Position numbers and translations under genes: made by a program. From Tidjanibacter sp. (GTDB lineage: Bacteria; Bacteroidota; Bacteroidia; Bacteroidales; Rikenellaceae), in contig JAFTUI010000018.1 in the NCBI GenBank assembly GCA_017466345.1, positions 46,039-110,038 of the forward strand: a stretch of 64,000 nucleotides of DNA. Direction: 5' to 3'. A model generated the notes under the pieces. It was not told the DNA's origin, searched no databases, and worked only from the letters and a program-made list of their open reading frames with translations. This document shows positions 33,750-50,299 of the stretch, piece by piece; the first letter of the stretch is position 1; each line of letters opens with the position of its first letter.

Positions 33750-35081
33750 ATGAAATTTAACGACACCATAGTAGCACCCGCCACCCCCACAGGAGGTGCC
33801 ATAGCCATCGTTCGCATAGAGGGCGAAAGGGCGTTGGATATTGCCGACAAACTCTTCCGCAGCCCCAAAAAAGGGGTAAAACTCAGCGATATGAAGGGAT
33901 ATTCGATGACCTATGGCTACATCTACGATGGCGAGCGCCGAGTGGATGACGTGGTGGTGGCAGTCTTCCGCACCCCGAATAGTTATACGGGTGGCGATAT
34001 GGTCGAGGTGTCGTGCCACGGTTCTGGCTACATTGTGGGCGAGATAGTAAGGCTCGCCATTGCCGAGGGTGCACGCGCCGCATCGGCAGGCGAATTTACA
34101 AAGCGTGCCTTCTTAGCAGGCAAGATGGACCTCTCGCAAGCCGAGGCAGTTGCAGACGTCATTGCCGCCGAAAATAGAGCCGCCCTAACTCTTGCAGACA
34201 CCCAACTAAGGGGCGCATACTCAGCCTCGCTCGCCACGCTTAGGGCAGAACTCATTCGCTTGGCTTCACTCTTGGAGTTGGAGTTGGACTTTTCGGAGGA
34301 GGATGTGGAGTTTGCCAACCGTTCGGAGCTCTTGGCACTACTCAATAGGATTGACGCTGAGATAGAACGCCTTGCGAACTCTTTCGTGGTGGGTAATGCC
34401 ATCAAGAGTGGTGTTGCGGTGGCTATTGTGGGCAAGCCCAATGTGGGCAAGAGCACACTCCTAAACCGAATTGTGGGCGATGAGAGGGCTATGGTTAGCG
34501 ATATTGCGGGCACCACACGCGACACTATTGAGGAGAGTGTTACGATAGATGGCGTTCGGTTCCGCTTTATAGATACCGCTGGTCTGCACCAGACGGGCGA
34601 CAGACTCGAAAATATGGGTATAGAACGCACGCATAGGGCAGTCGGCGAGGCTCAAATTGTGGTGCAACTCTGCGAGGAACCTTCGGAAGATATTGTGACC
34701 ACCACGCCCGAACAACACCTGCTGAGGGTAATCAATAAATGCGACTGCCACACCGCCCCCACCCCCGAAGGCTGGATAGCCATCTCGGCAAAATATGGAG
34801 ATGGAGTAGATACACTACTGAGAACTATTCGTGCGACTGTGAATACTGAGGATGTTATGAGGGGCGAGACGGTGGTCTCCAATAGCCGCCACTACGAGGC
34901 GCTGCTGAGGGCTCAGGAGTCGCTGCACCGCTCACGCGAGGCACTCACTATGGGCATCTCTACCGACCTTGTGGCTCAGGACATCCGTGCAGTCTTGGGC
35001 GCCATCGGCGAAATCACCGGCGAAGTCACCACCACCGACCTCCTCTCCGAGATCTTCTCCAAGTTTTGCATCGGTAAATGA
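33750..35081 (+). CDS. mnmE: tRNA modification GTPase MnmE
   Basis: A 443-aa GTPase that with MnmG installs the cmnm5 group on U34 of tRNAs. The N-terminal folate-binding domain starts NDTIVAPATPTGGAIAIVRI; the G domain has GKPNVGKSTLLN, DIAGTTRDT, DTAGLH and INKCD. The C-terminal cysteine motif CIGK, needed for catalysis, is intact. A strong terminator follows at 35179, after which the accessory island begins. Confidence 0.96.
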   Translation: MKFNDTIVAPATPTGGAIAIVRIEGERALDIADKLFRSPKKGVKLSDMKGYSMTYGYIYDGERRVDDVVVAVFRTPNSYTGGDMVEVSCHGSGYIVGEIVRLAIAEGARAASAGEFTKRAFLAGKMDLSQAEAVADVIAAENRAALTLADTQLRGAYSASLATLRAELIRLASLLELELDFSEEDVEFANRSELLALLNRIDAEIERLANSFVVGNAIKSGVAVAIVGKPNVGKSTLLNRIVGDERAMVSDIAGTTRDTIEESVTIDGVRFRFIDTAGLHQTGDRLENMGIERTHRAVGEAQIVVQLCEEPSEDIVTTTPEQHLLRVINKCDCHTAPTPEGWIAISAKYGDGVDTLLRTIRATVNTEDVMRGETVVSNSRHYEALLRAQESLHRSREALTMGISTDLVAQDIRAVLGAIGEITGEVTTTDLLSEIFSKFCIGK

Positions 35082-35391
35082 CCCTCACAACACCCTAATT
35101 ATCAAGCACTTACAAAACGACGAAAAGAAAGTAAAAATCAAGAACAAAGCATCTTAAAATACTAAATATCAACACTTTAAGAATTTTGCAAAAATCTGCA
35201 AAATTCTTTTTTTTCGCCCCATTTCACCCCCAAGTGTATCATTGTTTATCAAAACCGCACTTTCAAACACCTAGCAGAGGGGCATAGAAAAGGGGTGGGA
35301 AATTAAACTGATACTCATACGATACTCGTTTCTCGATCTGTTTACTGCGTGTTATATTTATTAAGTGTTACAACCAAAAACTTAATTGAAT
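35082..35391. other. Gap between mnmE and the accessory island
   Basis: No gene is seen. It contains the mnmE terminator (35179-35216) and, at 35211-35244, a sequence starting TTTTCGCCCC that recurs with differences at 44168-44205 and might be an attachment-site remnant. The DNA becomes A/T-rich from here. Confidence 0.5.
35179..35216 (+). terminator. Terminator of the parAB-mnmE unit
   Basis: AAGAATTTTGCA (35179-35190) pairs perfectly with TGCAAAATTCTT (35197-35208), followed by a run of eight T. Confidence 0.8.
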
Positions 35392-35982
35392 ATGACAAAA
35401 CTTAAACGACAAAGACGAGGTCTTCCGCCATTGGATTTACAAGTGCAAGACCACTATGAGGAACTGCTAACGGTAAGCCAAGCAGCCATACTTTCGGGAT
35501 TCTCAAAGCAATTCATTTACCAACTAATCAAGTCTAATACACTGTGTTACTGTACATTAGAAGATAAAGCACACATCAAGTATCGCCATTTAAGAGCGTG
35601 GTTTACTAAACTTCCATCCAACAAAGATTGCCCTCTTTGCCCTGCATCCCTCTCACTTGCTGGGTTGATGAACTATACAAAAATGGGGCGATCGTGGGTA
35701 TTATATTTTGTAGAAAGGCACTATATCCGCTCCTATTATTTGGGCAATTCTCGTAGATTTAACTATGAAGATTGTGTCGCAGCCTGGGAGTCCGAACTAG
35801 CCAAAAATACGGAATGGATAACCATAGATGATGCCATCGAAAAATTTGCGATAACAAGGGAGATTTTACTTTCTACTACAGAAAGTAAAATAGTCCGCAT
35901 CAAATGTGAGGACGCAAAAGTATTAGTAAATGTAGTGGATGTCAAACGATTAAAAGAGTTTAAGCAATGGGAAGAGTTATAA
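35392..35982 (+). CDS. Double helix-turn-helix DNA-binding protein (excisionase-like)
   Basis: A 196-aa protein with HTH_17-type modules: LTVSQAAILSGFSKQFIYQL (about residues 23-42), a second similar unit around SLAGLMNYTKMGRSWVLYFV (residues about 86-106) and a weaker third (ITIDDAIEKFAITREILL). Each is followed by a short wing, as in excisionase-type proteins. Its 3' end overlaps the integrase start by 16 nt, so the two are coupled: a Xis-like partner is the likely role. ATG at 35392 is preferred over a TTG 6 bp upstream. Function as Xis is inference. Confidence 0.7.
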   Translation: MTKLKRQRRGLPPLDLQVQDHYEELLTVSQAAILSGFSKQFIYQLIKSNTLCYCTLEDKAHIKYRHLRAWFTKLPSNKDCPLCPASLSLAGLMNYTKMGRSWVLYFVERHYIRSYYLGNSRRFNYEDCVAAWESELAKNTEWITIDDAIEKFAITREILLSTTESKIVRIKCEDAKVLVNVVDVKRLKEFKQWEEL

Positions 35983-37056
35983 TTCGCACGAAGAAAAAGA
36001 GCCACGGAACAATGTTGTCTATCTATCTTGAATTCAGTCCACCATTCGTGGATAATAACGGCAAAAGTGTGCGCTATGAATTCCTTGATCTTGAGAAGTA
36101 TACCACACCGACGAATGACACTCAACGGAAGTTTAACGACTCCATTGATGAGATTGCTGATGCGATTCGCTGTGAGCGATACATCAGCCTTGTACATAAA
36201 GATTATGAGTTTCTATCCAAGAGACGCATCAATGAAGACTTCCTTGACTATTTCCACCGCAACATAATATATCGTGGCATCAAGTTTAGGGTAAGCTTGA
36301 AATATCTCTACCGTTATTGTAAGGGCAAGTGTTGCTTCAAGGATGTAACGGTCAGTTTCTGCGAACAATTCAAGGGATACCTCACAAATACGAAAGGATT
36401 GCATAGGCAAGCAAAACTAAGCCAAAACACAGCATCAGCATACTTTAATGCCTTTATGAGTATCGTGAATCTTGCACACCAGGACGGTATCATCAAGACC
36501 GATATAAACACGAAGATATCTCGCATACATTGGAAACACGACACCGCAAAAGAGTATCTCGACGAGAAAGAAATTCGCAGACTGGAGCGTGTAGAGTTTA
36601 AGGAATATCAGGATATCCAACGAGCGAGCCTGCTGTCAATCTATACCGGACTGCGACGTAGCGACATCCTAGCCCTTGATTGGAAAAGCGTGCACATCAA
36701 CTCAAAGAAACGATCATATCTTGATATCGTTATTAGCAAAACACAAGTGGCCATAAAACTACCTCTCTCACCCTCTGCGATTGAACTACTCGGCAAACCT
36801 CAAAAGAGAGGGTTGGTCTTTCCCGACTTGACGAGTTATAAGTTAAGTTTCTACACCCCACGCCTACTAAAACTCGCAAAGATAGAGAAGCACATAACCT
36901 TCCACTGCTTTCGCCACACCTTCGCTATGCGTCTTCTGGAAAATGGCGTGGACATCTACTATCGCCACCCTCCTTGGTCATAAATCCGTCACAAGCACGC
37001 AGGTCTACGCCCGCCTCTCGCAAGCACAAATCCGACAGGCAGTGATGAAATTATAA
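35967..37056 (+). pseudogene. Tyrosine recombinase/integrase, frameshifted near the C-terminus
   Basis: Phage-integrase family. Core-binding helices span about residues 90-190; the catalytic Arg is in TGLRRSD (R230) and the box HCFRHTF (H313, R316) is present. After GVDIY (base 36959) the frame runs into a stop at 36981. Reading on from 36961 in the next frame gives IATLLGHKS and the catalytic tyrosine in QVYARLS, ending at 37056. A 2-nt loss (or 1-nt gain) at about 36957-36960 therefore separates the Tyr from the rest, and the enzyme should be dead unless the ribosome shifts frame or the base call is wrong. Confidence 0.8.
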
Positions 37057-37140
37057 GATGTGTAGTTTAGCATTAATTGATACTGACGAGATTTGACATT
37101 GTTGGGATGTAGTTTTGCCGAAAATTACATCTCATTTATT

Positions 37141-38178
37141 ATGAAAACCGAAAAATATACCCACTTGCGGGAGCAGGTACAGAAAATCGAGGAGAAGATT
37201 CTTGCCATCACGGGCAAAAATGTGGAGTTTAATATCGAGTGGACTCGCTCGCAGCGTAAATGCGAGCAGGTGGAACGACTGATTTGGAAGCGCAAACATC
37301 TGCTCGATAAGATGTTTGTCGCTAAGACAGAGGAGGTAAAGCGTATGGAGCAGTTGAACAGTCGTTTGTACGACCTCACGCAGAAAATGTATGCTCGCAC
37401 GGAGGAAGTCTATCGCAAGATGGCGACCACAACCTACGACCCCGAATTTGATGACGATGTGGAGGTCGAGGGCTCGCTTAGGTTTTCGCCGAATGGGCAC
37501 AGTTCTGTTTTGCCAATGGCGAATGACGACTATTACGGCTCGGAATTCTATGAGATGTTTTGCATTATTGACTGGCTCTACACTTGCGAGCATCTGAAAT
37601 TGGAGGAGGTAGAGTCTTGCTGGTGTCTCCGCTCGCCTGCCGACTATCGCCCCGAAATGACCCGCGAAGAGTTGGGGATAAAAGACGACCTCAATGACGA
37701 CACGACTTGGTATGAGTTCGTACAGCCCGCTGCCGAGAAATTGAGCCACCTCTGCATCTGCCACGCCATTCACGATTTGAGTTGCCACAAGCCCTATTCC
37801 ATTCCCGACATTCTGCGTATGAACGACTTTTGCGTGGAGGTCAAGGTCACGCATCAGCATTGGGAGGAGCAAGATGGCTGCGGTTGGAAATGGTGGGAGC
37901 GTTGTTCGTTCGAGGAGTTTAGGGATAAGTTTGTGCGCGAGGCGAAGCAGAATCGTGCGCCACAAATCCGACTTGGGCAGGAAATAGCCAATCGCACACG
38001 CCAATATTTCCACGATTATCTGGAGGACTTATCCGCAGATATGCCTAGCGTAGAGCAGTGGACGGAGCCATTATCCGATGAAGTTCACTATCGCTGGCGT
38101 CCGCAAAAAGATTGCTTCTACTTAGATGAAAATATAGACGACTACCTGCGAGAGTTGTATGAGTTTGTGAGAAGATAA
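37141..38178 (+). CDS. Hypothetical protein, accessory island
   Basis: A 345-aa protein I do not recognise. The first 110 residues are highly charged and predicted helical or coiled coil (LREQVQKIEEKIL, QVERLIWKRKHLL, KTEEVKRMEQL). The rest is rich in Trp, Cys and acidic residues (CIIDWLYTCEHLKLEEVESCWCL, GCGWKWWERCSFEEF). No signal peptide or membrane helix. The start is the ATG at 37141; upstream in-frame codons are unlikely. The strong acidic character resembles small phage or plasmid proteins, but no function is proposed. Confidence 0.6.
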   Translation: MKTEKYTHLREQVQKIEEKILAITGKNVEFNIEWTRSQRKCEQVERLIWKRKHLLDKMFVAKTEEVKRMEQLNSRLYDLTQKMYARTEEVYRKMATTTYDPEFDDDVEVEGSLRFSPNGHSSVLPMANDDYYGSEFYEMFCIIDWLYTCEHLKLEEVESCWCLRSPADYRPEMTREELGIKDDLNDDTTWYEFVQPAAEKLSHLCICHAIHDLSCHKPYSIPDILRMNDFCVEVKVTHQHWEEQDGCGWKWWERCSFEEFRDKFVREAKQNRAPQIRLGQEIANRTRQYFHDYLEDLSADMPSVEQWTEPLSDEVHYRWRPQKDCFYLDENIDDYLRELYEFVRR

Positions 38179-38213
38179 ATTTCATACTGTCGCATTTTGT
38201 TAGTCTGCCGCCA

Positions 38214-38221
38214 TACCTTTG
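38214..38221 (+). promoter_or_regulatory. -7 element for the small membrane protein / WYL unit
   Basis: TACCTTTG, 24 bp before the ATG at 38246, with TTTG at 38196-38199 as a closely spaced candidate -33 box. Confidence 0.55.
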
Positions 38222-38245
38222 CATCAAAATTTAATAGCAAAGAGT

Positions 38246-38488
38246 ATGGAGCAGAAGAAGCATCAGAAACAAAACCAAGAGCAGTTGCCATTTAGTGAGC
38301 AGTTGCGACAAAGTATTATAAATCAGTCATGTAACCCTACGACTTTGTGGGGTCGTGCGGCTGATTCGTTTCCACAGAATAAGCGCAAACAACGCATACA
38401 CATTGCTATTGCAGTCGTGGTTGGCGTCGTTATCGGCGCATTGACGATGCACTTTTTATCCTCGCCCGAGCGATGGATTCGATTATAA
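38246..38488 (+). CDS. Small tail-anchored membrane protein
   Basis: An 80-aa protein: a Gln/Lys-rich N-terminal half (MEQKKHQKQNQEQLPFSEQL) and one C-terminal transmembrane helix (about residues 51-71, HIAIAVVVGVVIGALTMHFL). No known family. It has its own promoter and lies 30 bp before the WYL regulator, probably in one transcript. Confidence 0.6.
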   Translation: MEQKKHQKQNQEQLPFSEQLRQSIINQSCNPTTLWGRAADSFPQNKRKQRIHIAIAVVVGVVIGALTMHFLSSPERWIRL

Positions 38489-38518
38489 TTTTTAACTTTA
38501 CCTAAAATTCATATTACT

Positions 38519-39457
38519 ATGAGTACCGCAGGACTTATCAATCGCTATGTATGGTTCGTGACGACCATTTATAACAGAGGCCCTATCTCGCTCGAAGAGA
38601 TACAGTGCCGCTACGAGTCGCACTTTGGGCGTGGCGAGGAGCTTTCGGAGCGTCAGTTCCACCGCTACACCGATGCTGTGGAGGAGTTGTTCGACATCGA
38701 GATAAAGTATAGTCGCACACAGCGAGGCTATGTCGTTGCCGACCGCGAAGGTATCGACAATATGGCTATGCGCAAGTGGCTTATCCAAACCTTCTCGGTG
38801 AATAACATTCTGCACGAGAGCCAGGAACTCAAAAATCGCATTCTCCTCGAAAATGTGCCTTCGGGACAGCAGCACCTGACGACCATCGTGGATGCGATGC
38901 GTGAGAGTGTAGCGCTCATAATGACTTACCACAGTTTTCATCGTGAGGAACCTTCGACCTTTGAGGTTGAGCCCTACTGTGTAAAACTCTTTGAGCAGAG
39001 GTGGTATATGCTCGGAATGAGCGACAAACTGCGCTTGTATGCCCTCGACCGCATTAAGGTATTGGAGCCGACCGAGCGCAAATTCAAACTGCCCAAGAAG
39101 TTCGATGCGGCGAAGTTCTTTGAGGACTACTACGGCATTATCATCGGCGATGAGGATTTCGATGTCGAGCCAGTGGCGTTGAAGGTCGATTCGTGGCAGA
39201 GCAAATATCTCCGCACTCTGCCACTACACCACACGCAGGTCGAGGTGGAGCGCAACGAGGAGTATTCAATTTTCGAGTACCGCTTGTGTCCGTCGTTTGA
39301 TTTTCAGCAGAAGTTGCTCTCAATGGGCGACTCGGCGGGTGTATTAGCCCCCGTGGCGCTCAGAGATATTCTCCGCAAGAAAGCCGAAACCACCGCAAAT
39401 AACAACGCCTTGGGAGGAATGGGCTCGGGGTATCATTTTAAGGTGTATAAGAAGTAA
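38519..39457 (+). CDS. WYL-domain transcriptional regulator
   Basis: A 312-aa protein with an N-terminal winged-HTH-like segment (about residues 1-75, LINRYVWFVTTIYNRGPISLEEI...ELSERQFHRYTDAVEELF) and a WYL domain at about residues 125-200 (MRESVALIMTYHSFHREE...YCVKLFEQRWYMLGMSDKLRLYALDRIKVLE), plus a C-terminal extension. WYL proteins sense nucleic-acid or nucleotide ligands and often control defence or mobile-element genes. Here it precedes the FtsK/DnaE-like cassette and is a candidate regulator of it; that link is inference from position. Confidence 0.85.
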   Translation: MSTAGLINRYVWFVTTIYNRGPISLEEIQCRYESHFGRGEELSERQFHRYTDAVEELFDIEIKYSRTQRGYVVADREGIDNMAMRKWLIQTFSVNNILHESQELKNRILLENVPSGQQHLTTIVDAMRESVALIMTYHSFHREEPSTFEVEPYCVKLFEQRWYMLGMSDKLRLYALDRIKVLEPTERKFKLPKKFDAAKFFEDYYGIIIGDEDFDVEPVALKVDSWQSKYLRTLPLHHTQVEVERNEEYSIFEYRLCPSFDFQQKLLSMGDSAGVLAPVALRDILRKKAETTANNNALGGMGSGYHFKVYKK

Positions 39458-39462
39458 TAAGT

Positions 39463-40275
39463 ATGAAAACTTATAAAGAACAAGAAGAGGAGTTGTTTGC
39501 TCGATGGATGGAGGCGTGCCGAGTGAAAGATGGCATAAATCCGGAGGAGGATTTTGCCTATGACGGCATCCTATTTCGTGGGGAACTTGAACTCTTAAAT
39601 GGCTGTTGGATACGCCACTCGGGAGACGAAACCGAACTGTGGGATAACGCACCTTGTCGTTTGCTGATTCTAACCAAAGATACCACCCGTAACGGCGGTC
39701 AAGAGGATATACGCGAGGAGGCTGCTCTGAAAAACAACATTGAGGATAGGAAAGAGCCGGCAGCAGGAATGTATCGAAACTTAACATTGTGGTCGTATGC
39801 TCTGCTCAATGCGGTGCAAGGTGGCGAGGTTGTAGAATACAACCAAACACCCCCCTGTTGGGATGAGTTGCGTGAGCACTACACCTCTGCCCCAATTGCG
39901 CGTGTGAATTGTAAAAAAGAGATTGGGGAGAGTTCTATCAGAGATGAGGTATTAAAGGCTCATATCGAAAGATATGCCGATTTACTCCAAGAGCAAATTG
40001 CGATGTACGATGCCGACATTATACTCTGCTGTGGAGGCGGCGGAATAATCAAAGATTTTGTAAAGGGCACATACTTACCAGACCTTGAAAAGTTTTCGGA
40101 TGCTGGCTGGGTATATTTTTCGCCCTCAACCAAAAAGATTGTAATAGATAGCTATCATCCAACAGCGCGTAAAAAGCGACAAGACATATACGAGCAGATG
40201 ATGGCAGATTTGAAGGCGTTTTTAGGGATGCATCCCGAATATCATAAATCCAAAACCGATGGAAGAGAAATTTGA
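39463..40275 (+). CDS. Hypothetical protein, possibly uracil-DNA-glycosylase-like fold
   Basis: A 270-aa cytoplasmic protein. Segments RLLILTKDTTRNGG (about residues 65-78), ADIILCCGGGGIIKDF (about 184-199) and VIDSYHPTARKKR (about 227-239) recall the spacing of the water-activating and HPS-type motifs of uracil-DNA-glycosylase-fold proteins, but the match is weak and no catalytic residue is certain. It follows the WYL gene by 5 bp and overlaps the next ORF by 17 nt, so it belongs to the cassette transcript. Confidence 0.5.
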   Translation: MKTYKEQEEELFARWMEACRVKDGINPEEDFAYDGILFRGELELLNGCWIRHSGDETELWDNAPCRLLILTKDTTRNGGQEDIREEAALKNNIEDRKEPAAGMYRNLTLWSYALLNAVQGGEVVEYNQTPPCWDELREHYTSAPIARVNCKKEIGESSIRDEVLKAHIERYADLLQEQIAMYDADIILCCGGGGIIKDFVKGTYLPDLEKFSDAGWVYFSPSTKKIVIDSYHPTARKKRQDIYEQMMADLKAFLGMHPEYHKSKTDGREI

Positions 40276-40512
40276 TTTTTCGCAGGCTGACCCTCTGTTT
40301 GTTGAGGCAGCAAGATTTGTTGTAGAGAACAATAGAATGGCTTGGGGGGCCCTTTGGAGCGTAAATTTGAGATTGGTTTCATTCGTTCCAGACGCATCCT
40401 CGAGCAGTTGGAGGCAGCCGGTATTGTTGGTGAGGCTGTGCGCTGTAAATCTCGCACCGTACTCTGCACCGCTGAGGAGTTGGAACAAAAACTCGCCGAG
40501 TGGCAGAAATAG
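40259..40512 (+). pseudogene. Stand-alone FtsK-gamma domain, frameshifted at a G6 tract
   Basis: The first frame gives ADPLFVEAARFVVENNRMAW; from about 40353 the other frame gives LERKFEIGFIRSRRILEQLE and AAGIVGEAV, ending in WQK at 40512. Joined, they are a complete FtsK gamma winged-helix domain (consensus DPLxxEAxxFV...FxIGxxRAxRxxxxLExxGIVG), the part that reads KOPS DNA in FtsK. The break is at GGGGGG (40345-40350): one more G restores a single frame of about 84 codons. It could be an assembly error, a true mutation or slippage-based phase variation. Confidence 0.72.
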
Positions 40513-40533
40513 CTAACTAATATACACAAACAT

Positions 40534-40574
40534 TCCCCCTCTCTGTCCTGATATGGCAGAGAGGGGTTTTACTT
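40534..40574 (+). terminator. Terminator after the FtsK-gamma ORF
   Basis: CCCCTCTCTG pairs with CAGAGAGGGG, ending in TTTTACTTTT; the T-run overlaps the next -7 box (TACTTTTG, 40570-40577). Confidence 0.7.
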
Positions 40575-40577
40575 TTG
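40570..40577 (+). promoter_or_regulatory. -7 element for the 92-aa ORF
   Basis: TACTTTTG, 24 bp before the ATG at 40602. Confidence 0.5.
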
Positions 40578-40601
40578 TCGCAGAATCAAAATCAATGATT
40601 T

Positions 40602-40880
40602 ATGACAAAAGAAGAACTCTGCGAGGCTCTCCATCGAGAGATGCTATTCTACTATTTTGCGCAGCGTGAGCCTCGGCTCGAAGTCCGCACGGGCGAGCCA
40701 TTGATAAATGCCGTCGGGCGGAAGATGCTGCCATACGCTGACTGCGGCTTTCCTCGCCCAATAACCGAGGCCGATATCGAAATGCTCTGCAACTGCTCCT
40801 TTGCGGGGTTGTTCCACTACGACCTCGAAAAAGGTGCAGAGAAAATTACTCGACTCAAACAAAAACTAAAATCACTCTGA
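40602..40880 (+). CDS. Small hypothetical protein, accessory island
   Basis: A 92-aa protein of unknown family, with no signal or membrane segment. Notable stretches are MTKEELCEALHREMLFYYFA and LPYADCGFPRPITEADIEML; it ends in a basic helix (EKITRLKQKLKSL). It has its own promoter and lies between two FtsK-derived ORFs. Confidence 0.5.
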   Translation: MTKEELCEALHREMLFYYFAQREPRLEVRTGEPLINAVGRKMLPYADCGFPRPITEADIEMLCNCSFAGLFHYDLEKGAEKITRLKQKLKSL

Positions 40881-40903
40881 CAGTTTTGGGCAGAGTTGGA
40901 CGA

Positions 40904-40911
40904 TAGCTTTG
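40904..40911 (+). promoter_or_regulatory. -7 element for the FtsK-like/DnaE-like genes
   Basis: TAGCTTTG, 30 bp before the ATG at 40942; the in-frame TTG at 40909 lies within it and is rejected as a start. Confidence 0.5.
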
Positions 40912-40941
40912 CTTAAAGAATATGATAAATACTGCAAGAAA

Positions 40942-41940
40942 ATGGAGAATAACACAAACGCACGCAGAATGAGATTGATACAACAGAGGATTAGAAAGAT
41001 ATTCAATCCCAGCTTGATAATCTCAAGTGAAAACTCTAATTATTATGTTTCCTCATTCTCCTTTAATCCCCCAAGGTCCAACCCGATGATAATACATAGC
41101 GATTTAGAAGAGGCTATATTGATGTTGGATAATTGTTGTAGACCGAGGGGAACTGTATCTGTAAATGAGGATGGGAGTATATTAGTCAGAATAGAATGCC
41201 CCAAGGGTGATGATAAATTGCATACGATAGATTTGAAACGGGAGTTTCAAATACTTGCTACAGAAATTGAGGGTATGGTTTTGCCCATTATTGTGGGTGT
41301 TGATGATAATCTCAAAACAAATATTGTTGATTTAGCAAGAATCGGAGGGCTACTTATTGGTGGTTCGCAGGCTGATAAATGCGAATTGTTATCATCTATT
41401 GCTTTGTCCGCACGGAAACTTCGGGTAAAAGGTTGCGCAAGTTGTATGATAATAGATCCTAATAGGAATCTTCAACAGTCTTATGAAAAAATAGAGTCTT
41501 ATTATTCGGCAGTTGATTATGCTCATACGAATAATGAGATAGATGGTATGTTACAATACATATGTGAAGTTATAGATAAAGAGGAGTCCGATTACAATCC
41601 TTATTTAATCATTATTGATGACTTTGATTGTATAATGCACGATGAGCAACTTGCAAATAAACTATTATATATCGCAGAGAGAGGGCAGCGAATTGGAATC
41701 TATTTGGTTTTAGCGTCTAATAAAGTGAATTATGAAGTCTTTACAGGGCGACTGAAAGCAAATTTCCCTGCCCGTATATCATTTCATCAGCCCACAGAGG
41801 TAGAATCCAGAATTATACTTGATGATACATACGCCCATTATCTGACACAGCATAATGAATTTTGTTATTCGTATGATAGTATTGTAACCATATTGCAAAT
41901 TCCTAAAACAGACGATGATTATGAATACTACATTTTTTGA
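40942..41940 (+). CDS. FtsK/SpoIIIE-like motor protein with degenerate Walker A
   Basis: A 332-aa protein aligning with the FtsK RecA-like motor domain: LPIIVGVDDNLKTNIVDLAR (about 114-133), then IGGLLIGGSQADKCELLSS where FtsK has the P-loop, Walker B LIIIDDFDCIM (222-232), ERGQRIGIYLVLASNK (247-261) and ANFPARISF...ESRIILD (273-294). The P-loop reads GGSQADKC (140-147): Lys is kept but the Gly before it is Asp and the Ser/Thr after it is Cys, so ATPase activity is doubtful. No membrane segment and no gamma domain. The gene is A/T-richer than its neighbours and overlaps the next gene. Confidence 0.78.
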   Translation: MENNTNARRMRLIQQRIRKIFNPSLIISSENSNYYVSSFSFNPPRSNPMIIHSDLEEAILMLDNCCRPRGTVSVNEDGSILVRIECPKGDDKLHTIDLKREFQILATEIEGMVLPIIVGVDDNLKTNIVDLARIGGLLIGGSQADKCELLSSIALSARKLRVKGCASCMIIDPNRNLQQSYEKIESYYSAVDYAHTNNEIDGMLQYICEVIDKEESDYNPYLIIIDDFDCIMHDEQLANKLLYIAERGQRIGIYLVLASNKVNYEVFTGRLKANFPARISFHQPTEVESRIILDDTYAHYLTQHNEFCYSYDSIVTILQIPKTDDDYEYYIF

Positions 41941-42868
41941 TTGGAACAGCCGCGACCCGCTGTTCGACGAGGTGGCGCATTATGTGGTTGAGCGACAGGC
42001 GGTGTCGGCATCGGCTATCAGTGATAAATTTTGCATCGGCTTTAACCGAGCAAAACGCATTATCAAGCAGTTGGAGCAGGCACATATCGTAGGCGAAGAG
42101 TGGAGCTCTCGCCATCCACGAGCAATCTATGACTGTTGTTTTCGTAAGCTCGATAAGAGATTGGCAGACCTTGCCACTATTGCCCGCTTGCAACCGTTGG
42201 AGGATAAATGGCAGGCAAAGTATGCAGCATATGAGGCAAAAAAACGCGAAGAGGAGGGTGAGGATTACTATTTCAAATTGGCAAATCACCTTCCGCTTGC
42301 CAAGGAGTTACGCGAGCAAGAGGAGGCTCGTGCCCGCTTTGAGGCAATGACCGAGGAGGAGCGACAAGCCGAAATAGAACGCCTCGATAAAGAGAGGAAA
42401 GAGAAGGATAATAATTGGGGCAAAGGTCCTGTTCACGGAATGGAACGCAAGGATTGGAATGCCTATGTGGGAGCGCACGATAGGCAAAAACACGATATGA
42501 TTATGCGCGAATTGCCGTGGGGTGGCGATTACGATTGGTCGGATATCTTCCAGATTTTGAAATTCAAAATCGAGCGAATGATTGAATATTGGGAGCAGTT
42601 CGGACATTGTCGAAATGGACGTTATGTGGTAAGTACAATGCGTACAGCCTGCAGCCTAATAGAAATAGTTCTAAAAGATGGTAACGAGAGTGGTAATTGC
42701 GAGCATTTCCCTTATCGGGTAAACCTGCATAATACCGAACGATTTAGAATTTATCACGACCACAAAGGTCTTATTTGCAAAGGCGACAAGCAAAGAGTGC
42801 GTTACTGCAAAGCGTATTGCATTTTGTTTAAATTTTTGGAGTTTCATATGCATAATTGGTGGGATTAG
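41921..42868 (+). CDS. FtsK-gamma-domain fusion protein
   Basis: A 315-aa protein. Residues about 9-70 form an FtsK gamma winged helix (RDPLFDEVAHYVVERQ, then ISDKFCIGFNRAKRIIKQLE and QAHIVGEEW). A long charged coiled coil follows (about 85-165, EEARARFEAMTEEERQAEIE), then an unassigned C-terminal domain ending FLEFHMHNWWD, a WWD-type tail I associate with phage and plasmid hypotheticals. It overlaps the FtsK-like motor gene, so motor and DNA-reading domain are coupled but separate. An alternative ATG lies at 41915. Confidence 0.75.
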   Translation: MNTTFFDWNSRDPLFDEVAHYVVERQAVSASAISDKFCIGFNRAKRIIKQLEQAHIVGEEWSSRHPRAIYDCCFRKLDKRLADLATIARLQPLEDKWQAKYAAYEAKKREEEGEDYYFKLANHLPLAKELREQEEARARFEAMTEEERQAEIERLDKERKEKDNNWGKGPVHGMERKDWNAYVGAHDRQKHDMIMRELPWGGDYDWSDIFQILKFKIERMIEYWEQFGHCRNGRYVVSTMRTACSLIEIVLKDGNESGNCEHFPYRVNLHNTERFRIYHDHKGLICKGDKQRVRYCKAYCILFKFLEFHMHNWWD

Positions 42869-42870
42869 TT

Positions 42871-43986
42871 ATGATTGAGTGTATTAGATTTCGTTCGGTG
42901 TTACCTTTTGATGAGAATGTTAAAGAGGAGTTTATATCCGAGATTTGGGGAGGAGCTATCCACCGTTGGAGAGGGAATATAACGCCTGATATTAAGGCGA
43001 GAATAGAGAAGGAGATTGCCACTTTTGAGCAGGTGGATGGGTATATGGAGTATCTCTATTTCGTGTGGCGAGTGGTCTATGATAGCGGATACTATATTAT
43101 GCCTTATCGTACTCTTGCCCACGCATCAGCGGTGTGCTATGCGTTAGAAATTACGGAGGTTGACCCTATTCGTTTGGGGCTTGATTTCAACCGCTTTATG
43201 CAGACAGATAAGCCACGATTCGTTGAGATTGGTTTGGCCACCAATGCTACAAAATCGCAGATTCAAACCGAGATTATGAACCTCGACTTTGATGAGGATA
43301 GGGAGCGCTTGGGCGAACGAGAGTTGGATGAGAAAGCCCCTGCTCTGACAATTTATCCGAGCCAGCGCACTGCACAGTTATTGGGATATTTTAGCGATAA
43401 AGTCAATTTTGACTACATACCATTTGACGACCGAGAGACTTTCTACACCTTGTTGCGCTCAAATGACTTAACGGGTGTGTATGGATGTAATGATGGAACG
43501 GTTTTGCAGGAATATCTAACGCAAGCCAAACCCCATTTTGAGGATTTAATACCGTTTTGTACAGCGAGCATTATAGACTATCCGACTAATCACATCTATA
43601 CATCACGCAAATATGGCCTTGCGTGGGAGCCTCGTTTCACGCCAGATATTGAGATGATATTGAGCGAAACTTGTGGCGATATACTCTACAATGAACAGGT
43701 CTATGCTATCGCCAAATTGGTCGGTTATACTCCAAGCGAGGCGGAGGCGTTTCGTAAGGTGCTGACTGCTCGCAAAAAGCAGGAATATAATAATCACCGC
43801 CGCCGATTCAATAAGCATAAGGGGTTACTTCGTAAACTTATAAATGAGGGCAGTTGGTCTTTTCCGAAGGCTGTGATGGCAGAGTTTACCCGCTTGGTCT
43901 ATCTTACCGCCTACCTCAAAACGCATTTCCCCGAGGAATACACTCGCGCAGCCTTATGCGTAGCAGCGAGCGATGATTATTATTAA
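42871..43986 (+). CDS. DnaE-like (Pol III alpha) protein lacking the catalytic aspartates
   Basis: A 371-aa protein that matches the palm-to-fingers part of bacterial DnaE. Residues 59-110 follow the GYFLIVxDFIxWA...PGRGSxAGSLVAYALxITxxDP...FxRFL block, but the PGRGS loop reads PYRTLAHAS and the PDFDxDF catalytic motif is PRFVEIG (115-121), so all three acidic residues are gone. Fingers motifs are clear: PFDDRETFYTLLRSNDLTGV, GDILYNEQVYAIAKLVGYTP, EAFRKVLTARK and YLTAYLKTHFPEEYTRAAL. No PHP domain or beta-clamp tail. It must be non-catalytic; a structural or DNA-binding role is inferred. ATG at 42871. Confidence 0.8.
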   Translation: MIECIRFRSVLPFDENVKEEFISEIWGGAIHRWRGNITPDIKARIEKEIATFEQVDGYMEYLYFVWRVVYDSGYYIMPYRTLAHASAVCYALEITEVDPIRLGLDFNRFMQTDKPRFVEIGLATNATKSQIQTEIMNLDFDEDRERLGERELDEKAPALTIYPSQRTAQLLGYFSDKVNFDYIPFDDRETFYTLLRSNDLTGVYGCNDGTVLQEYLTQAKPHFEDLIPFCTASIIDYPTNHIYTSRKYGLAWEPRFTPDIEMILSETCGDILYNEQVYAIAKLVGYTPSEAEAFRKVLTARKKQEYNNHRRRFNKHKGLLRKLINEGSWSFPKAVMAEFTRLVYLTAYLKTHFPEEYTRAALCVAASDDYY

Positions 43987-44315
43987 TAGCGGGTAGCACA
44001 TATTAGAAATATCATCAATCAAAATTATTATTGCATCTGCAAACTTATTATATCCATCAATCTATAAACTTTACAAAAATTATGTATCTTTACACTCGAA
44101 TTCGGGCACCGGCTCGGAACAGACGATTTATTATTGACTATCATTATTTGTTAATGTTTGTCAAAATTTTTCGCCCCAATTCAGCCCAAAACCCGTATAT
44201 GATTGATTTTCAAGCAGTCTAACCTTCTGCATCGGAAAGTAATTTTTGCACTCTAATGACCACTAATAAACACTAATGCCTACAAAAATCGGCTGAAAAT
44301 CATACAAAATAGACG

Positions 44316-44353: not shown

Positions 44354-44393
44354 ATATGCTTTAATCTCTTCAACAAAAATATCTTGCCAAGTT

Positions 44394-44443
44394 TGCAATG
44401 GAGTGCAATGAGGAGCAATGGAGTGCAACGAGCTGCAATAACA
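44394..44443 (+). repeat. Five 10-nt iteron-like repeats
   Basis: Consecutive units TGCAATGGAG, TGCAATGAGG, AGCAATGGAG, TGCAACGAGC and TGCAATAACA. The one-helical-turn period and the position about 170 bp upstream of an HTH protein gene suggest a multimer-binding site for a replication, excision or regulatory protein. Confidence 0.6.
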
Positions 44444-44611
44444 GGGCGAAGAGAATCGTACTTTCTACAAAACAGCATTGGTTGTCGGTGGCGAAAGTCG
44501 TTAACAACTTTTTTACAAAAAAAAATCACCAATTCTCAAACCTTATCACAAACGCCCCTCTACTCTTAATATAAAAAGACTTCCAAATAGTTTAACTTAA
44601 AATTTAAAACT

Positions 44612-44974
44612 ATGACTATGCAAGAAAAAACTTTATCATTTGAGCAGCTACCGGAGCTCATTCAAAATCTGGTAGAGAGAATCGAATCACTCGAAAAGAC
44701 AGTTCGAGAGAAGCAGCAACCACAGCCACTCGAAGGAGAGTTGATGAGTGTGGAGGATGTTTGCAAACTGCTTGGTAAATCGAAATCGGCGGTGTACCGA
44801 ACGGTGAGGTGTCACGACATCCCGTTTATCCGTCAGGGTAACCGATTGTATTTCGATCGACCTACCATCAAGAAGTGGCTCGAGAAGAAACAAAATATCG
44901 AGTGCATCACCAATATGGAGGAGTTCGAAAAGTTTATGACTCCTGACCCGTGGCGATACCGAAATCGACGCTAG
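44612..44974 (+). CDS. HTH_17 (excisionase-like) DNA-binding protein
   Basis: A 120-aa protein: N-terminal coiled coil (about residues 8-35, LIQNLVERIESLEKTVREKQ), then an excisionase-type HTH at about 46-95 (LMSVEDVCKLLGKSKSAVYR, then IPFIRQGNRLYFDRPTIKKW). This architecture is common in Bacteroides integrative elements. It is a candidate ligand of the iterons upstream at 44394-44443. Monocistronic, terminated at 45005. Confidence 0.82.
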   Translation: MTMQEKTLSFEQLPELIQNLVERIESLEKTVREKQQPQPLEGELMSVEDVCKLLGKSKSAVYRTVRCHDIPFIRQGNRLYFDRPTIKKWLEKKQNIECITNMEEFEKFMTPDPWRYRNRR

Positions 44975-45561
44975 TAAAGTGGGTTGTGAATTAGGCAAAG
45001 ATTGACAAGGCGGATTTGGCCCGCCTTGTTTTATTAAATATATGATTAAATTTTGTGGAAATTTATTACACTATTATCTTATTATTCTCAATATGGAAAA
45101 ATATGTTATTACTTAAAAAATGCAAGAATCATCAGATAAAAGGTGTTTGTAATTCAACCGTAGCTATAGTACCACAAACGGTTATCTAAATATATAAACA
45201 CCAAGGCTTGTTATTACTCCTCTAAATCCTAAGAGCCAAAATAGAACTTTAAGATGATAAAAACAATTGTATCCAATTCGTATATAACTTAACATTCTGC
45301 AGTAGAAAGTAAATATTTACAAATGCTCAAACTATATCAAATGCAGGCGATACATTCTTTGGGACCATATTATATTTAACTCGTATTTTCTACAAAAAAT
45401 TACTATCTTTGTATTCGAATTAGGGCACCAGTGACAAAAGAGAAACTTGCAAAATTAAGCAAATAATACTTTTACAACCAAAATATCCATTCGATTCTAC
45501 AATGGCCGTGAGGTGGGAGCTATTTAGAATGAGCGAATGAGAAATTTACTAACTTTGCAAT
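44975..45561. other. Non-coding A/T-rich region before the Fic gene
   Basis: No gene is seen. It contains the terminator ACAAGGCGG/CCGCCTTGT (45005-45029), the second copies of the two short repeats described for 43987-44611 (45291-45312 and 45404-45431, the latter with the -7-like TATCTTTG) and the Fic promoter at 45550. The very low G+C suggests transferred DNA. Confidence 0.55.
45550..45557 (+). promoter_or_regulatory. -7 element for the Fic gene
   Basis: TAACTTTG ends only 4 bp before the ATG at 45562; if used, the mRNA would be almost or fully leaderless. Confidence 0.45.
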
Positions 45562-46632
45562 ATGAGCGAATTTGATAAATATATAGTTCAAGGTGAGCCG
45601 GACAAAAAGGCGAAAGCCAATGCGTGGCAGACTGCGATCGGTCTTCAAGATGTGGATGGTTTGAAGCCGTCGGAGTATCTTATCAAAACAGCGGTGCAGC
45701 ATATCGAGGGCGATATTACAATCGACCAGGTCAAGGATATGCTCGACACCTACTACGAGACCAAAAATGTTCGTAAGCAACTTGATGACGAGCGCACTGA
45801 GGAGGCGGACAAGGTTTCGGCGCGTATTACCGAGATTTTGTCCGAGCAGTCGTTCTCATTCACTCCCGATTATCTGCTGAGAATTCACCGTCGATTGTTC
45901 GAGGGAATCTACAAGCACGCCGGTAAGTTACGTGATGTCAATATCACAAAGAAGGAGTGGGTGCTGAGTGGCGACACAGTGCTCTATTCGAACTATGATA
46001 TGCTGCGTGAGACGCTCGAATACGACTTCGAGCAGGAGAAGAAAACCGATTATTCGGTGCTCAATGCCGATATGGCGGTTAAGCAAATTTGCAAGTTCGT
46101 GTCTGGCATTTGGCAGATACACCCTTTCCGTGAGGGCAACACCCGCACTACCGCTGTGTTTACGATGAAGTGGTTGCAGACCTTCGGATTCAGTGTCGAG
46201 AACGATGTATTCAAGGATAATTCGTGGTATTTTAGAAATGCGCTGGTGAGGGCAAACTACAACAATATTCCGAAGAGAATCTTTGCAACATCAGAGTTCC
46301 TCGAACTATTTTTCCGCAACCTTTTATTTGGCGAGCAGAACAAGTTGAGTAACCGCACAATGTTGGCAGGTGATCCCCAAAGTGCCACGCAAGAAATTTC
46401 AAAGAGCCAAAATGACACTTTGAATGGCACTTTGAATTGCAATCTTGACGAGTTGGCACTTTTGCGATTTGTGAAAGAAAACCCTGACGCCACCCAGATT
46501 GAAATTGCAAAGCACATTGGCAAGTCGGAAAGAACAGTCAAGCGTATGACACCTACTCTGATTGAACGAGGCCTACTCGAAAGAGAGAACGGCAAGCGCA
46601 ATGGCAAGTGGATAGTCAAGTGCGAAATTTAG
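45562..46632 (+). CDS. Fic-domain protein with N-terminal antitoxin-like segment and C-terminal wHTH
   Basis: A 356-aa Fic protein (AMP transferase fold). The catalytic motif HPFREGNTR is intact at residues 187-195. The N-terminal stretch SEYLIKTAVQHIEGDITIDQVKDML (read as AVQHIEGDITIDQV, residues 44-57) resembles the VbhA-type inhibitory helix with its IEG motif, suggesting self-inhibition. Residues about 295-350 form a winged helix (ATQIEIAKHIGKSERTVKRM) typical of Bacteroidota Fic regulators. It likely AMPylates a host protein such as a gyrase subunit, but target and toxicity are unknown. Terminator at 46655. Confidence 0.88.
   Translation: MSEFDKYIVQGEPDKKAKANAWQTAIGLQDVDGLKPSEYLIKTAVQHIEGDITIDQVKDMLDTYYETKNVRKQLDDERTEEADKVSARITEILSEQSFSFTPDYLLRIHRRLFEGIYKHAGKLRDVNITKKEWVLSGDTVLYSNYDMLRETLEYDFEQEKKTDYSVLNADMAVKQICKFVSGIWQIHPFREGNTRTTAVFTMKWLQTFGFSVENDVFKDNSWYFRNALVRANYNNIPKRIFATSEFLELFFRNLLFGEQNKLSNRTMLAGDPQSATQEISKSQNDTLNGTLNCNLDELALLRFVKENPDATQIEIAKHIGKSERTVKRMTPTLIERGLLERENGKRNGKWIVKCEI

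Positions 46633-47235: not shown

Positions 47236-47237
<2 letters not shown>
47114..47237. repeat. Long-hairpin element A3 (124 nt) at the 3' end of the V-ATPase operon
   Basis: Ends AAAAAATGCA (47114-47123) and ATGCGTTTTT (47228-47237). A perfect 11-bp stem, AAACCCCTGCC (47154-47164) with GGCAGGGGTTT (47186-47196), holds the loop GAGTTTACTCTTCGTAAAT(AA). Conserved flanks TATAGGCGCACAAGA and ATCGCAGTGCAACG match A1. It overlaps the stop codon of the K subunit and would form the operon's 3' end. Confidence 0.8.
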
Positions 47238-47724
<487 letters not shown>

Positions 47725-47735
47725 TTATTTGATTT

Positions 47736-49559
47736 TTAGTTTGTTTTACGCTTTTCAAAGGGAGTGTATACCCTTGTTGCTGCCTCGAAGCCGGCGTTCT
47801 TGTAGAACTCAATGAACGTAAGACGCATCGGGTGAACGAAGGCACCAATGGCAGACATAAAGATGTTTATACCGTGACCAAACGCCAAGATGAGGAACAT
47901 CACCACTTGGCGCAGACCGGGGGTGTCGGGAGCAAGGCTGCCTGCAAGGTCGTTGAACACCACTGCCAGCGCACCGCCCGAAAGGCTGATGGCGAACAGA
48001 CGCACATAACTCAGCACATCACCCAGCAGACCCGTAAGGTTGTTGTAGGTATCCCACAGACCCGAGCCAAAGTTGACCAAAGGATTGCGGTTGGGATTAT
48101 TCAGCAGGAGCATAAAGACTGCACCAAAGATCAGCACGCCGAGGAAGATGGGCGAAGAGAAGCCGAAGCCTGCAACGCCAACCATAGGCAGCAAGAATGC
48201 CAAGAGGCAGTCCACCAATATGATAAGCCAGCCAAGAGTACCAAACGAGTACTTAAAGCCGTAGGCGATGGTGGTATTTATCACATTGAGCACCAGAGCG
48301 AAAATAATCTGCACAATACCGCAACCGAGTGCGATGTAGAAGAGTTGGTCGTTGATGGTCTGCATAGCATTGTTATACCATTCGGGCACGCCCGAGTCGA
48401 TGAGCGACACACCGAATATATTGCCCACGCACAAACCAAAGACCATAGAGGCAAAGCCCAACCACATAACGAGTTGCGAGATAAGCCCCATTCCCTTCAT
48501 CTTCTTCAAGTACATAAACAGACCTATAAGGAAGAAGGTTGCACCATAGCCCGCATCGCCAATACAGAAGCCGAAGAAGAGCATATAGAAGGGTGCAAAA
48601 TACTTCGTCAGGTCCATAGTGCCATACTTGGGCACGGCGTAGAAGTCGCCAATGAACTCGAAAGGCTTAGCGAACCAGCCATTTTTGAGTTTCACGGGCG
48701 TGTCGTCCTCCATAGTGGGTTTCTCCTTAACATAGAACACATCGTTCTCTGCATCCAATAGAGCATCCACCTCCTTAGCATTAGCCTCGGGAGCCCAGCC
48801 CTGCAAAACTATGAGTTTGCCATCAGCCTCGCCCTCGCCACTGCGGCTCACTTGGCTAAACTGCAACTCATCTTTCAGACCATTGGCGTGGTCGGCAATG
48901 AGCGACTCACTTGCCACGCAACGAGCCATAACACTCTCCCACTCCGAGAGCACAGCCTGCAAAGCGGCAATCTCGCGGCGTTTGTCATCGGCATTGAGAG
49001 AGGGCGTTTTCACAACCTGAGCATCAATCTGAGGTGCGGGCTCACCCTTGCGGCTTACGACCACAAAATAGGTAACGCCACCCCTCTCCGAGATAGGCTC
49101 AACAGTGTAGTTCTCACTCCACGTCTCCACGCCCTGGGCATACTCGTTGGAGTAGCAGGAGTAGAAGTGGAGCAAGATACCCTCTGCTTCGAGGCGTGCG
49201 ATAGACTCGGGAGCGAAGTCGCCCCACATAGAGAGTTCCTCAGCCTCTTTCTCTGCCTTAGCAATCTGAGCAGTTAGGGAGTCTATCTTAGCCGAAGCCT
49301 TGCGGTAGTTCTCGTAAGCCTCCTCGCCACTTGCGAAGGGTTCGCCACCCAGATACTTGGGCTGTTTTTTAAGAGCCGCAAAAGCCTCCGATGCCGCCTT
49401 ATGAGCCTCAATCTCACCCAGCACTTCCCTTTCGCGCTCGTTAGGTTCCCAGCCGCTGGTTGTGATGTCCACAACACCGAGTTCCTGCAACCTTGCAAGG
49501 AACTCCTCTTGCGCCTTATGATAGAGCACAAGAGTATATTTGTTCATCTTTACTATCAT
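47736..49559 (-). CDS. ntpI: V-type ATP synthase subunit I (a-subunit)
   Basis: A 607-aa stator membrane subunit. About 310 N-terminal cytoplasmic residues, predicted coiled coils (ALRAEY-like KAASEAFAALKKQ, KIDSLTAQIAKAEKEAEEL), precede about seven or eight helices including GFCIGDAGYGATFFLIGLFM and SYVRLFAISLSGGALAVVFN, the helix with the half-channel Arg (YVRLF). Its start overlaps the D-subunit stop (ATGA); a second ATG (MNKYTL) 12 bp downstream is possible. Confidence 0.92.
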   Translation of the reverse strand: MIVKMNKYTLVLYHKAQEEFLARLQELGVVDITTSGWEPNEREREVLGEIEAHKAASEAFAALKKQPKYLGGEPFASGEEAYENYRKASAKIDSLTAQIAKAEKEAEELSMWGDFAPESIARLEAEGILLHFYSCYSNEYAQGVETWSENYTVEPISERGGVTYFVVVSRKGEPAPQIDAQVVKTPSLNADDKRREIAALQAVLSEWESVMARCVASESLIADHANGLKDELQFSQVSRSGEGEADGKLIVLQGWAPEANAKEVDALLDAENDVFYVKEKPTMEDDTPVKLKNGWFAKPFEFIGDFYAVPKYGTMDLTKYFAPFYMLFFGFCIGDAGYGATFFLIGLFMYLKKMKGMGLISQLVMWLGFASMVFGLCVGNIFGVSLIDSGVPEWYNNAMQTINDQLFYIALGCGIVQIIFALVLNVINTTIAYGFKYSFGTLGWLIILVDCLLAFLLPMVGVAGFGFSSPIFLGVLIFGAVFMLLLNNPNRNPLVNFGSGLWDTYNNLTGLLGDVLSYVRLFAISLSGGALAVVFNDLAGSLAPDTPGLRQVVMFLILAFGHGINIFMSAIGAFVHPMRLTFIEFYKNAGFEAATRVYTPFEKRKTN

Positions 49560-50164: not shown

Positions 50165-50299
50165 CTAATTCTATTATTTATGATGGTTTTATTTTCTCTA
50201 ATTTGATGGATTTTTGAGCTATTTTTTCTTTTTTGCCGAGGGAGCATAGCGGAACTATGTGACCAAGGCAAAGAGAAAAAAGAGCCAAAAAGGCACAAA

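Follow-up and report, generated by a model that had tools for sequence, protein, structure and literature searches.

A mobile WYL-linked island in Tidjanibacter sp. with a tail of ParC, FtsK and DnaE mimics, possibly an anti-phage-type operon

What is a row of detached pieces of FtsK, ParC and DnaE doing behind a transcriptional regulator? The question is raised by a stretch of 64,000 nucleotides (the window) from Tidjanibacter sp., a member of the Rikenellaceae (assembly GCA_017466345.1, contig JAFTUI010000018.1, positions 46,039 to 110,038 of the forward strand; source genome of 1.82 Mb in 30 contigs). An earlier note on this DNA had described a cassette of separated FtsK parts and a dead DnaE-like protein at 40259..43986. 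Its genes are real, but the extent was drawn too small: the unit starts at upstream genes for a transmembrane-like (TM) protein, a WYL regulator and a protein resembling uracil-DNA glycosylases (UDG), and the whole cassette is the 3' part of an integrative element of ~9 kb (~34,980-44,242) in the 3' end of mnmE. The label of FtsK parts was too narrow as well, as the motor is optional and the set also takes in ParC, DnaE, UDG-like and SprT-like domains, plus DprA domains in distant relatives. The locus is of a known kind, a mobile WYL-linked defence-type island, while no paper in the literature searched describes an ordered tail of ParC, FtsK and DnaE mimics. Loci are referred to below by L numbers and genomes by G numbers. 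The features of the operon and its front are:

37141..38178, plus strand: 345-aa protein, present in many islands, no convincing family match
38187..38221, plus strand: promoter- or operator-like site, conserved dyad with a TAnnTTTG box, common to 10/11 islands
38246..38488, plus strand: 80-aa protein, TM-like, with one hydrophobic segment (read by eye), preceding WYL in islands; no Pfam match
38519..39457, plus strand: WYL/WCX transcriptional regulator (Pfam WYL 5e-15, WCX 4.4e-6)
39463..40275, plus strand: UDG-superfamily-like protein (UDGx), presumed effector
40259..40512, plus strand: stand-alone FtsK gamma domain (gamma84), frameshifted in the window copy (FtsK_gamma 8e-11 for the C-terminal half)
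40536..40566, plus strand: sequence-conserved hairpin, then TTTTACTTTTG; exact arms in 15/18 islands
40602..40880, plus strand: 92-aa ParC fragment of the C-gate region (ParC92; NCBIfam 1.1e-4, hhalign probability 94.5)
40942..41940, plus strand: FtsK-like motor with degenerate Walker A, an optional part (phrog FtsK/SpoIIIE-like 6.1e-16, NCBIfam FtsK 4.5e-10)
41921..42868, plus strand: gamma fusion (gamma2), a second FtsK gamma domain with charged middle region and C-terminal domain (Pfam FtsK_gamma 1.7e-15, residues 12-71)
42871..43986, plus strand: DnaE-like protein that retains finger homology but lacks the PHP domain and the catalytic aspartates (DNA_pol3_alpha and DNA_pol3_finger, each ~1e-13)

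The DnaE-like protein (371 aa) closes the tail, and its family profile matches DnaE structures in the PDB at 2.4e-39. Its local alignment spans residues 355-833 only of the 1,213 in host DnaE, without the PHP domain and without the C-terminal clamp-binding region. We take the aspartates of the DVDVD motif, together with a third in the GLIKMDFLGL segment, to be the catalytic aspartates of the DnaE palm. Opposite the DVDVD aspartates of the host, the window protein has Glu, Gly and a gap, and a second type of copy (group B, L098) has Glu, Glu and Leu; the GLIKMDFLGL segment finds no match in either. Judged from these alignments the DnaE-like protein retains no catalytic aspartate, so that the description of it as dead is borne out, and the motor likewise has a degenerate Walker A. 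The predicted structure of the DnaE-like protein was of low quality, with a predicted local distance difference test (pLDDT) value of 40.

The small open reading frame at 40602, left without a name before, is a fragment of ParC. It aligns only with residues ~389-477 of the 935 in host ParC, presumably the C-gate and part of the coiled coil, and it has neither the DNA-cleavage domain with the catalytic tyrosine nor the C-terminal pinwheel. In a profile-profile comparison with 15 host ParCs (hhalign) the E-value was 8.1e-8. These 15 are from 17 fetched host-ParC loci and align as one ParC family (L068 matches Pfam DNA_topoisoIV at 1.8e-109), with L066 and L070 omitted because their longest frame is not the ParC one. 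In the genomes of the family the fragment's own copies are 80-88% identical, and its other matches (E 9e-6 to 0.01) have 27-34% identity and lie in frames of 554-960 aa. A PDB search with the C-gate of host ParC returned no topoisomerase. Cysteines 48, 63 and 65 of ParC92 are invariant in 13 copies and the aligned host ParC residues are not cysteine; these three may form a metal site.

As the earlier note had stated, the FtsK-like motor lacks a gamma domain: it aligns with the RecA-like motor of host FtsK, and motor and gamma are encoded in separate genes and not in one chain. The last three genes are tightly packed, with the motor overlapping the gamma fusion by 20 bp and the gamma fusion and DnaE-like gene 2 bp apart. 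The motor gave no Pfam FtsK match. Its Walker A reads GGSQAD-KC versus GATGQGKS in the host and is likewise degenerate in L101, while it is intact in the remaining four island motors aligned (L090, L097, L098 and L102). With a GC content of 0.356 the motor gene has a base composition unlike the rest, and it is missing from its slot in eight islands with a complete slot (L091, L093, L094, L099, L100, L103, L104 and L130).

Two gamma domains per operon raise the matter of what DNA they read. The gamma domain of Escherichia coli FtsK reads FtsK-orienting polar sequences (KOPS) via N1296, R1300 and E1303, according to the available text of two reports (PMC2533119, PMC2680272). At the equivalent positions 13 host FtsKs have N-R-D (13 of the 20 loci scanned fitted the search expression). 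Among eight gamma84 copies the arginine is invariant, the asparagine is present in five (Ile in the window and L091, Ala in L130), and the third residue is acidic in seven (E in six, D in one; S in L100). The window gamma fusion has N-R-K, with a basic third position, and this residue is Lys or Arg in all 12 gamma2 or gamma fusion proteins that fitted, 11 of which have the asparagine; the shortened gamma2 of L085 did not fit the expression and is not counted. Because the third residue differs, the gamma84 and gamma2 of one operon probably read different DNA. The FtsK-gamma frame that the earlier note had placed at 40259-40512 is not a single open frame in the window: from 40,342 on, the C-terminal half uses a different frame from the N-terminal half. 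Intact 84-aa copies are seen in related islands (L090, L091, L083, L101 and L104). The frameshift may be real decay or an assembly error.

Directly behind gamma84 lies the hairpin, where positions 40,525-40,580 have a folding energy of -24.3 kcal/mol (z -4.88). A search for the exact hairpin in 251 genomes of the family found one per genome in 13, and the reversed-pattern control found none. Twelve of these 13 are known carriers of ParC92 or of the DnaE-like gene, and in the thirteenth (G269, L204) WYL and other island genes run to the end of the contig. Carriers without the exact hairpin are G252, which has variant arms (L098), and G237, G156, G187 and G282, in which the contigs are cut. Of the 18 islands only L098 has variant arms, and L092 and L097 start past the hairpin position. 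It is placed 3' of effector-type genes or gamma84 and 5' of the next tail gene (in L094 after a gene called o184), and weaker second copies with a degenerate left arm occur only beside the o184 gene (L100, L103, L204). The hairpin may be a terminator plus new start, a protein-binding palindrome, or homology for module exchange. An integron gene-cassette array was considered and rejected, there being one exact hairpin per genome and not many attC sites (IntI was not searched for). Separately, a viral contig (L203, 7027-7061) shares the hairpin stem, there flanked by T runs, and has no island gene in the 13.6 kb examined; this stem is probably an unrelated ordinary terminator.

The tail genes travel together. 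ParC92 is present in 13/251 genomes of the family, and in 11 of these a DnaE-like gene follows downstream in the same orientation, of either group A or the ~30% identical group B; in one of the other two the contig ends there (G204), and G242 lacks the gene. The DnaE-like protein at an E-value of 1e-20 or better was found in 9/251, and the gamma fusion minus its gamma domain in 7/251. The earlier note had asked whether motor, gamma fusion and DnaE-like genes stay together in other genomes, and this holds for gamma and DnaE-like, but not for the motor, which is no core part. In a wider contig scan over 84,980 species, the best 80 of 206 confirmed stretches were kept, representing 79 loci, so weaker short relatives could have escaped the scan. 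A short DnaE-like protein is present at 16 of the 79 loci (L090-L104 and L130), and in the other 63 the matched frames are at least 600 aa. The 16 loci belong to Rikenellaceae, Alistipes, Tidjanibacter, Bacteroidales and one Flavobacteriales metagenome-assembled genome, and a herbivore gut sample is named for 13 of them. In gut Bacteroidales genomes the related units sit at various sites, and the integrase ahead of them differs or is not seen.

The order of gene families was consistent in 523 of 525 pair observations from 18 islands or island parts, compared with a mean of 0.691 and a maximum of 0.750 over 500 shuffles. Minority-strand genes were dropped for this test and repeated families counted once, which leaves out the second copy of WYL in L101 and of the DnaE-like gene in L097; as the islands share descent, the shuffled orders provide a loose null. 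The usual order runs integrase, 345-aa protein, o173, TM protein, (UDG-like), WYL, effector-type genes, gamma84, (SprT/YgjP-like, KaiC-like, o184), ParC92, (AAA, Sel1, SprT-like), motor, gamma2 and DnaE-like, and an exception was seen in L097 (4011-6489), where a motor comes after a shortened group-A DnaE-like gene and before a full group-B one. What fills the slots after WYL changes between relatives and includes GmrSD, Mrr, PLD, further UDG-like genes and others. Other variable genes of the islands encode YhcG (L094) and an AAA protein with AriA, NsnB, mad3 and PtuA as its best PADLOC matches. A KaiC-like ATPase gene and, behind it, a 353-aa gene that matches nothing in Pfam form a recurring pair in the island slots (284 aa plus 353 aa in L102 and L130; also L204).

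Selection was assessed for 11 gene sets of two to eight copies each, as the ratio of nonsynonymous to synonymous substitution rates (dN/dS) between chosen complete copies only, for example six group-A DnaE-like genes (L044, L045 and L046 are cut). The medians range from 0.085 to 0.292: WYL 0.085 (five copies), ParC92 0.119 (eight copies), 345-aa protein 0.126 (four copies), DnaE-like 0.139 for group A and 0.150 for group B, gamma84 0.155, motor 0.171 for the Walker A type and 0.292 for the window type (one pair), short gamma2 0.189, gamma fusion 0.191 and UDGx 0.194, with the highest single pair (0.386) in the short gamma2 set. The 11 gene sets are thus under purifying selection, and together with the fixed order in related islands these values mark the cassette as more than a chance assembly. 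That the genes are captured fragments carried as passengers is a most improbable explanation, despite their likeness to fragments of housekeeping genes, the two broken frames in the window copy and the existence of shortened copies (L097 DnaE-like, L085 gamma2): it was rejected on the dN/dS medians, and the fixed order also argues against it.

A phage origin was considered too and is not supported. In viral contigs no relative could be confirmed by scans with the DnaE-like protein, the C-terminal domain of the gamma fusion, ParC92 or the 345-aa protein, and L203 has no island gene in its 13.6 kb examined. A tblastn search with the DnaE-like protein returned 754 phage and 885 plasmid records, each with a best place of <60% identity; among the matches listed (20 each for phages and plasmids) identities are 27-31%, and where annotated these are DNA polymerase III alpha, DNA polymerase or error-prone polymerase.

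Upstream of the tail, the WYL protein at 38519, which the earlier note had suspected of controlling the cassette, is indeed part of the unit, which is preceded by a conserved operator-like site. Lying upstream of the TM gene, this site combines a dyad of the CTGWC-N7-GWYAG type with a TACCTTTG-like box; the TAnnTTTG sequence is, we assume, the Bacteroidetes -7 box. Eight of the 11 islands have it by pattern, starting 57-60 bp ahead of the TM start codon with differing DNA further upstream, L090 and L098 have it by alignment with one arm mismatch, and L104 is without the site. The strict dyad CTGWC-N7-GTYAG occurs nine times on both strands of 253 kb, eight of these being operator-like sites (two of six counted on both strands) and one lying in the L098 hairpin. 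The WYL regulator with its putative inverted-repeat operator ahead of the operon fits the pattern of BrxR-type regulators, and WYL repressors of that type are a precedent for the setting in the available text of PMC9122601. Next to WYL, the UDG-like proteins share a His-Pro that is invariant in 11 aligned proteins, and a sequence search of the PDB with UDGx found nothing relevant.

Matches to the 345-aa protein were found in 7/393 genomes of the order, and five further loci with it were fetched, none of which shows a tail gene: L185 has WYL and o173, L187 has WYL, UDG-like and a KaiC-like gene beside WYL, L186 has GmrSD-like genes, L189 has nothing further and L188 is only a piece at a contig end. 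The scattering of homologues that the earlier note had named as fatal is not seen among the tail genes, but it does occur for the relatives of WYL, the UDG-like and the 345-aa proteins, which are without a tail in L185 and L187.

The boundaries of the element are given by the following features:

34980..35081, plus strand: mnmE 3' end, left attachment region (MnmE by Pfam)
35386..35982, plus strand: excisionase-like HTH_17 protein (Pfam HTH_17 2.7e-6; copy in G154 88% identical)
35967..36983, plus strand: tyrosine integrase (Pfam Phage_integrase 8e-15)
44222..44242, plus strand: candidate right attachment site, an imperfect repeat of the mnmE 3' end with 15/21 bases matching

In G154 mnmE is followed by the same excisionase and integrase (88-92% identical), and the DNA identity with that element (88%) starts at 34,980 within mnmE, the mnmE proteins being only 50% identical. 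Because of this start in the 3' end of mnmE and the imperfect repeat at 44,222-44,242, we place the genes of interest in the 3' part of a ~9-kb element, in which all genes from the excisionase to the DnaE-like gene are on the plus strand. The integrase frame has 338 aa compared with 384 aa in a relative, and its C-terminal part, with the tyrosine motif, sits in another frame: the Phage_integrase match stops at profile position 147 of 172, while the copy in L171 reaches 170. Here too, real decay or an assembly error may be the cause. At most of the 18 right ends compared by eye, similarity runs out at the stop codon of the DnaE-like gene or shortly past it; a longer tail is common to six, G156 and G112 have ~25 bp in common, and the DNA of the window and G154 is alike further right. 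The operon thus appears to begin upstream at the TM, WYL and UDG genes and to finish at or shortly past the DnaE-like stop codon.

Beyond the candidate right attachment site, an HTH_17 gene and its surroundings (44371-45039) are 77% identical to the DNA past the same element in G154, and therefore a second element may sit in tandem. A Fic-domain protein with a C-terminal winged helix follows at 45562-46632 (Pfam Fic 4.2e-14), and at ~47236-54941 there are genes resembling a V-type ATPase operon, of which a 607-aa protein was checked (Pfam V_ATPase_I 7e-14). The same genome has a second, decayed DnaE-like remnant (G000:C2:21493-21690; L038, L050), 65% identical and with two stops, near the end of another contig.

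What, then, might the operon do? Our preferred reading, which we hold tentatively and at somewhat less than an even chance, is that of a small site-specific integrative element with one WYL-linked anti-phage-type operon, in which the tail consists of mimics serving as the recognition part for effectors. WYL would repress the operon until infection yields its ligand, and the block beside it would then make DNA-damaging effectors, UDG-like here and GmrSD, Mrr or PLD in relatives. The tail, with its ParC C-gate, gamma domains, DnaE fingers and sometimes the motor, would keep partner- or DNA-binding surfaces without catalysis; these mimics could dock on, or get bound by, replication or segregation machinery that is phage-made or phage-occupied, and so place or trigger the effectors there. 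The earlier note's idea of a decoy or defence module is supported in part: the defence role is suggested by association, and a role as mimics by the active-site residues that the window DnaE-like protein and motor have lost. The optional motor and the changing effectors favour a modular immune operon, and the lost catalysis fits every reading discussed here except maintenance of the element. Also counting in favour are the fixed gene order, the low dN/dS medians, the operator-like site in 10/11 islands with its BrxR-type precedent, the GmrSD, YhcG, Mrr, PLD, AAA and UDG-like genes among the variable members, the phage-stopping glycosylases Brig1 and Brig3, and the descent of ParC92 from the region that in GyrA presumably binds CcdB. 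Several observations weigh against this reading. WYL is the only clear PADLOC match of regulator type in the window, the assignment of UDGx to its superfamily is by weak matches, and the PADLOC matches of the motor are FtsK/HerA-like ATPases. ParC92, gamma2 and motor are each absent from some islands, and L094 is without WYL. The low dN/dS points to a conserved partner; it argues against a fast arms race and against a surface shaped by one. Finally, since relatives of WYL, the 345-aa, UDG-like and KaiC-like proteins live without a tail in other families (L185, L187), front and tail can live apart, and the tail is not needed everywhere.

A bolder form of this proposal, which we consider doubtful, is a new immune operon in which catalytically emptied ParC, FtsK and DnaE domains in fixed order form a sensor array with interchangeable DNA-damaging effectors; gamma84 might then take the G-rich palindrome in the hairpin, or orientation motifs of the chromosome, as a mark of self, and gamma2, with its reversed charge, might read something else. 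The slow evolution would also fit a conserved partner in the host itself, and the truncated proteins could act as dominant negatives, joining host ParC dimers via the C-gate, FtsK hexamers via the dead motor and the replisome via the DnaE fingers, and so stalling replication and segregation as a WYL-released abortive infection. The active-site residues are gone, the parts kept in the tail proteins are presumably those for oligomerisation or DNA binding, and WYL control would keep such an operon silent. Yet the motor is missing in many islands and has kept its Walker A in four (L090, L097, L098, L102), the mimics are just 27-45% identical to host proteins where measured, and the ParC92 stretch aligned with the host C-gate is altered (by eye) and carries the invariant cysteines, all of which makes a shut-off of this kind rather improbable. 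Soluble decoys, absorbing phage or plasmid proteins that attack ParC, FtsK, DnaE or UDG and thus protecting without sensing, are an unlikely explanation. We know of no attacker of these surfaces in Bacteroidales. A GyrA fragment can be a tight toxin binder (CcdB-GyrA14, available text of PMC9491731), and inactive restriction endonuclease domains are proposed as decoys in relatives of bacteriophage exclusion (BREX) systems, where such domains are described as evolving fast (available text of PMC12839542); those here evolve slowly. FtsK gamma and motor, ParC and DnaE act in connected cellular processes and the element has an integrase, so a set that maintains the element and processes its DNA (resolving dimers, decatenating, or replicating it after excision) was weighed too. 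This seems quite unlikely, as neither a replication initiator nor a relaxase was identified among the element proteins scanned, catalytic residues are lost, and the related operons lie behind different integrases or none seen.

Our preferred reading, of a recognition tail for WYL-controlled effectors, was also set beside known systems. With the BrxR/WYL defence islands the operon has in common a WYL/WCX protein near its head, an inverted-repeat-like site in front, and GmrSD, PLD and Mrr in the cargo of relatives; unlike BREX, it gave no match to a PglZ, BrxC or PglX core among seven window proteins searched against PADLOC (a scan that did not take in the integrase, excisionase and TM protein). 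To our knowledge, a tail of replication and segregation mimics is not part of BREX. The glycosylases Brig1 (of the UDG superfamily) and Brig3 stop phages (PMC11078745, PMC13160076), and by description they resemble UDGx as a UDG-like protein in a defence-type neighbourhood, whereas here several UDG-like proteins fill slots of one ordered operon with mimics. In BREX-related systems inactive P-loop and restriction endonuclease domains, proposed as decoys or sensors, likewise stand beside active effectors, but they are fast-evolving and not separate slow-evolving proteins of ParC, FtsK and DnaE domains (available text of PMC12839542). The C-terminal domain of the gamma fusion follows a DprA domain instead of gamma in L047 (9762-11105; Pfam 9.9e-15) and L048 (7085-8356; 1.5e-26), reminiscent of the DprA-like ShosA of ShosTA (PADLOC ShosA 1.4e-13 in L047), from which the window protein differs in having FtsK gamma as partner; a WYL gene is nearby in L048 and L049, and a relative of the 345-aa protein in L048. 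GyrA14 is a laboratory construct and, we assume, the C-gate of GyrA and thus the counterpart of the ParC92 region. It binds CcdB at nM affinity (available text of PMC9491731) and so is a fragment of a topoisomerase A subunit that holds a toxin on its own, while ParC92 is a natural gene, 27-34% identical to host ParC.

As the earlier note had supposed, word searches in the open-access literature (stand-alone gamma and phage defence; inactive Pol III decoys; FtsK/ParC/DnaE/WYL defence islands; Topo IV decoys; Rikenellaceae/WYL islands) found no described system of this composition. If our preferred reading is true, bacteria would put inactive parts of the machinery for replication and segregation to new use in immune recognition, and the islands would list the surfaces that viruses or effectors meet. 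The UDG-like proteins of gut Bacteroidales would then be candidates for the short list of anti-phage glycosylases.

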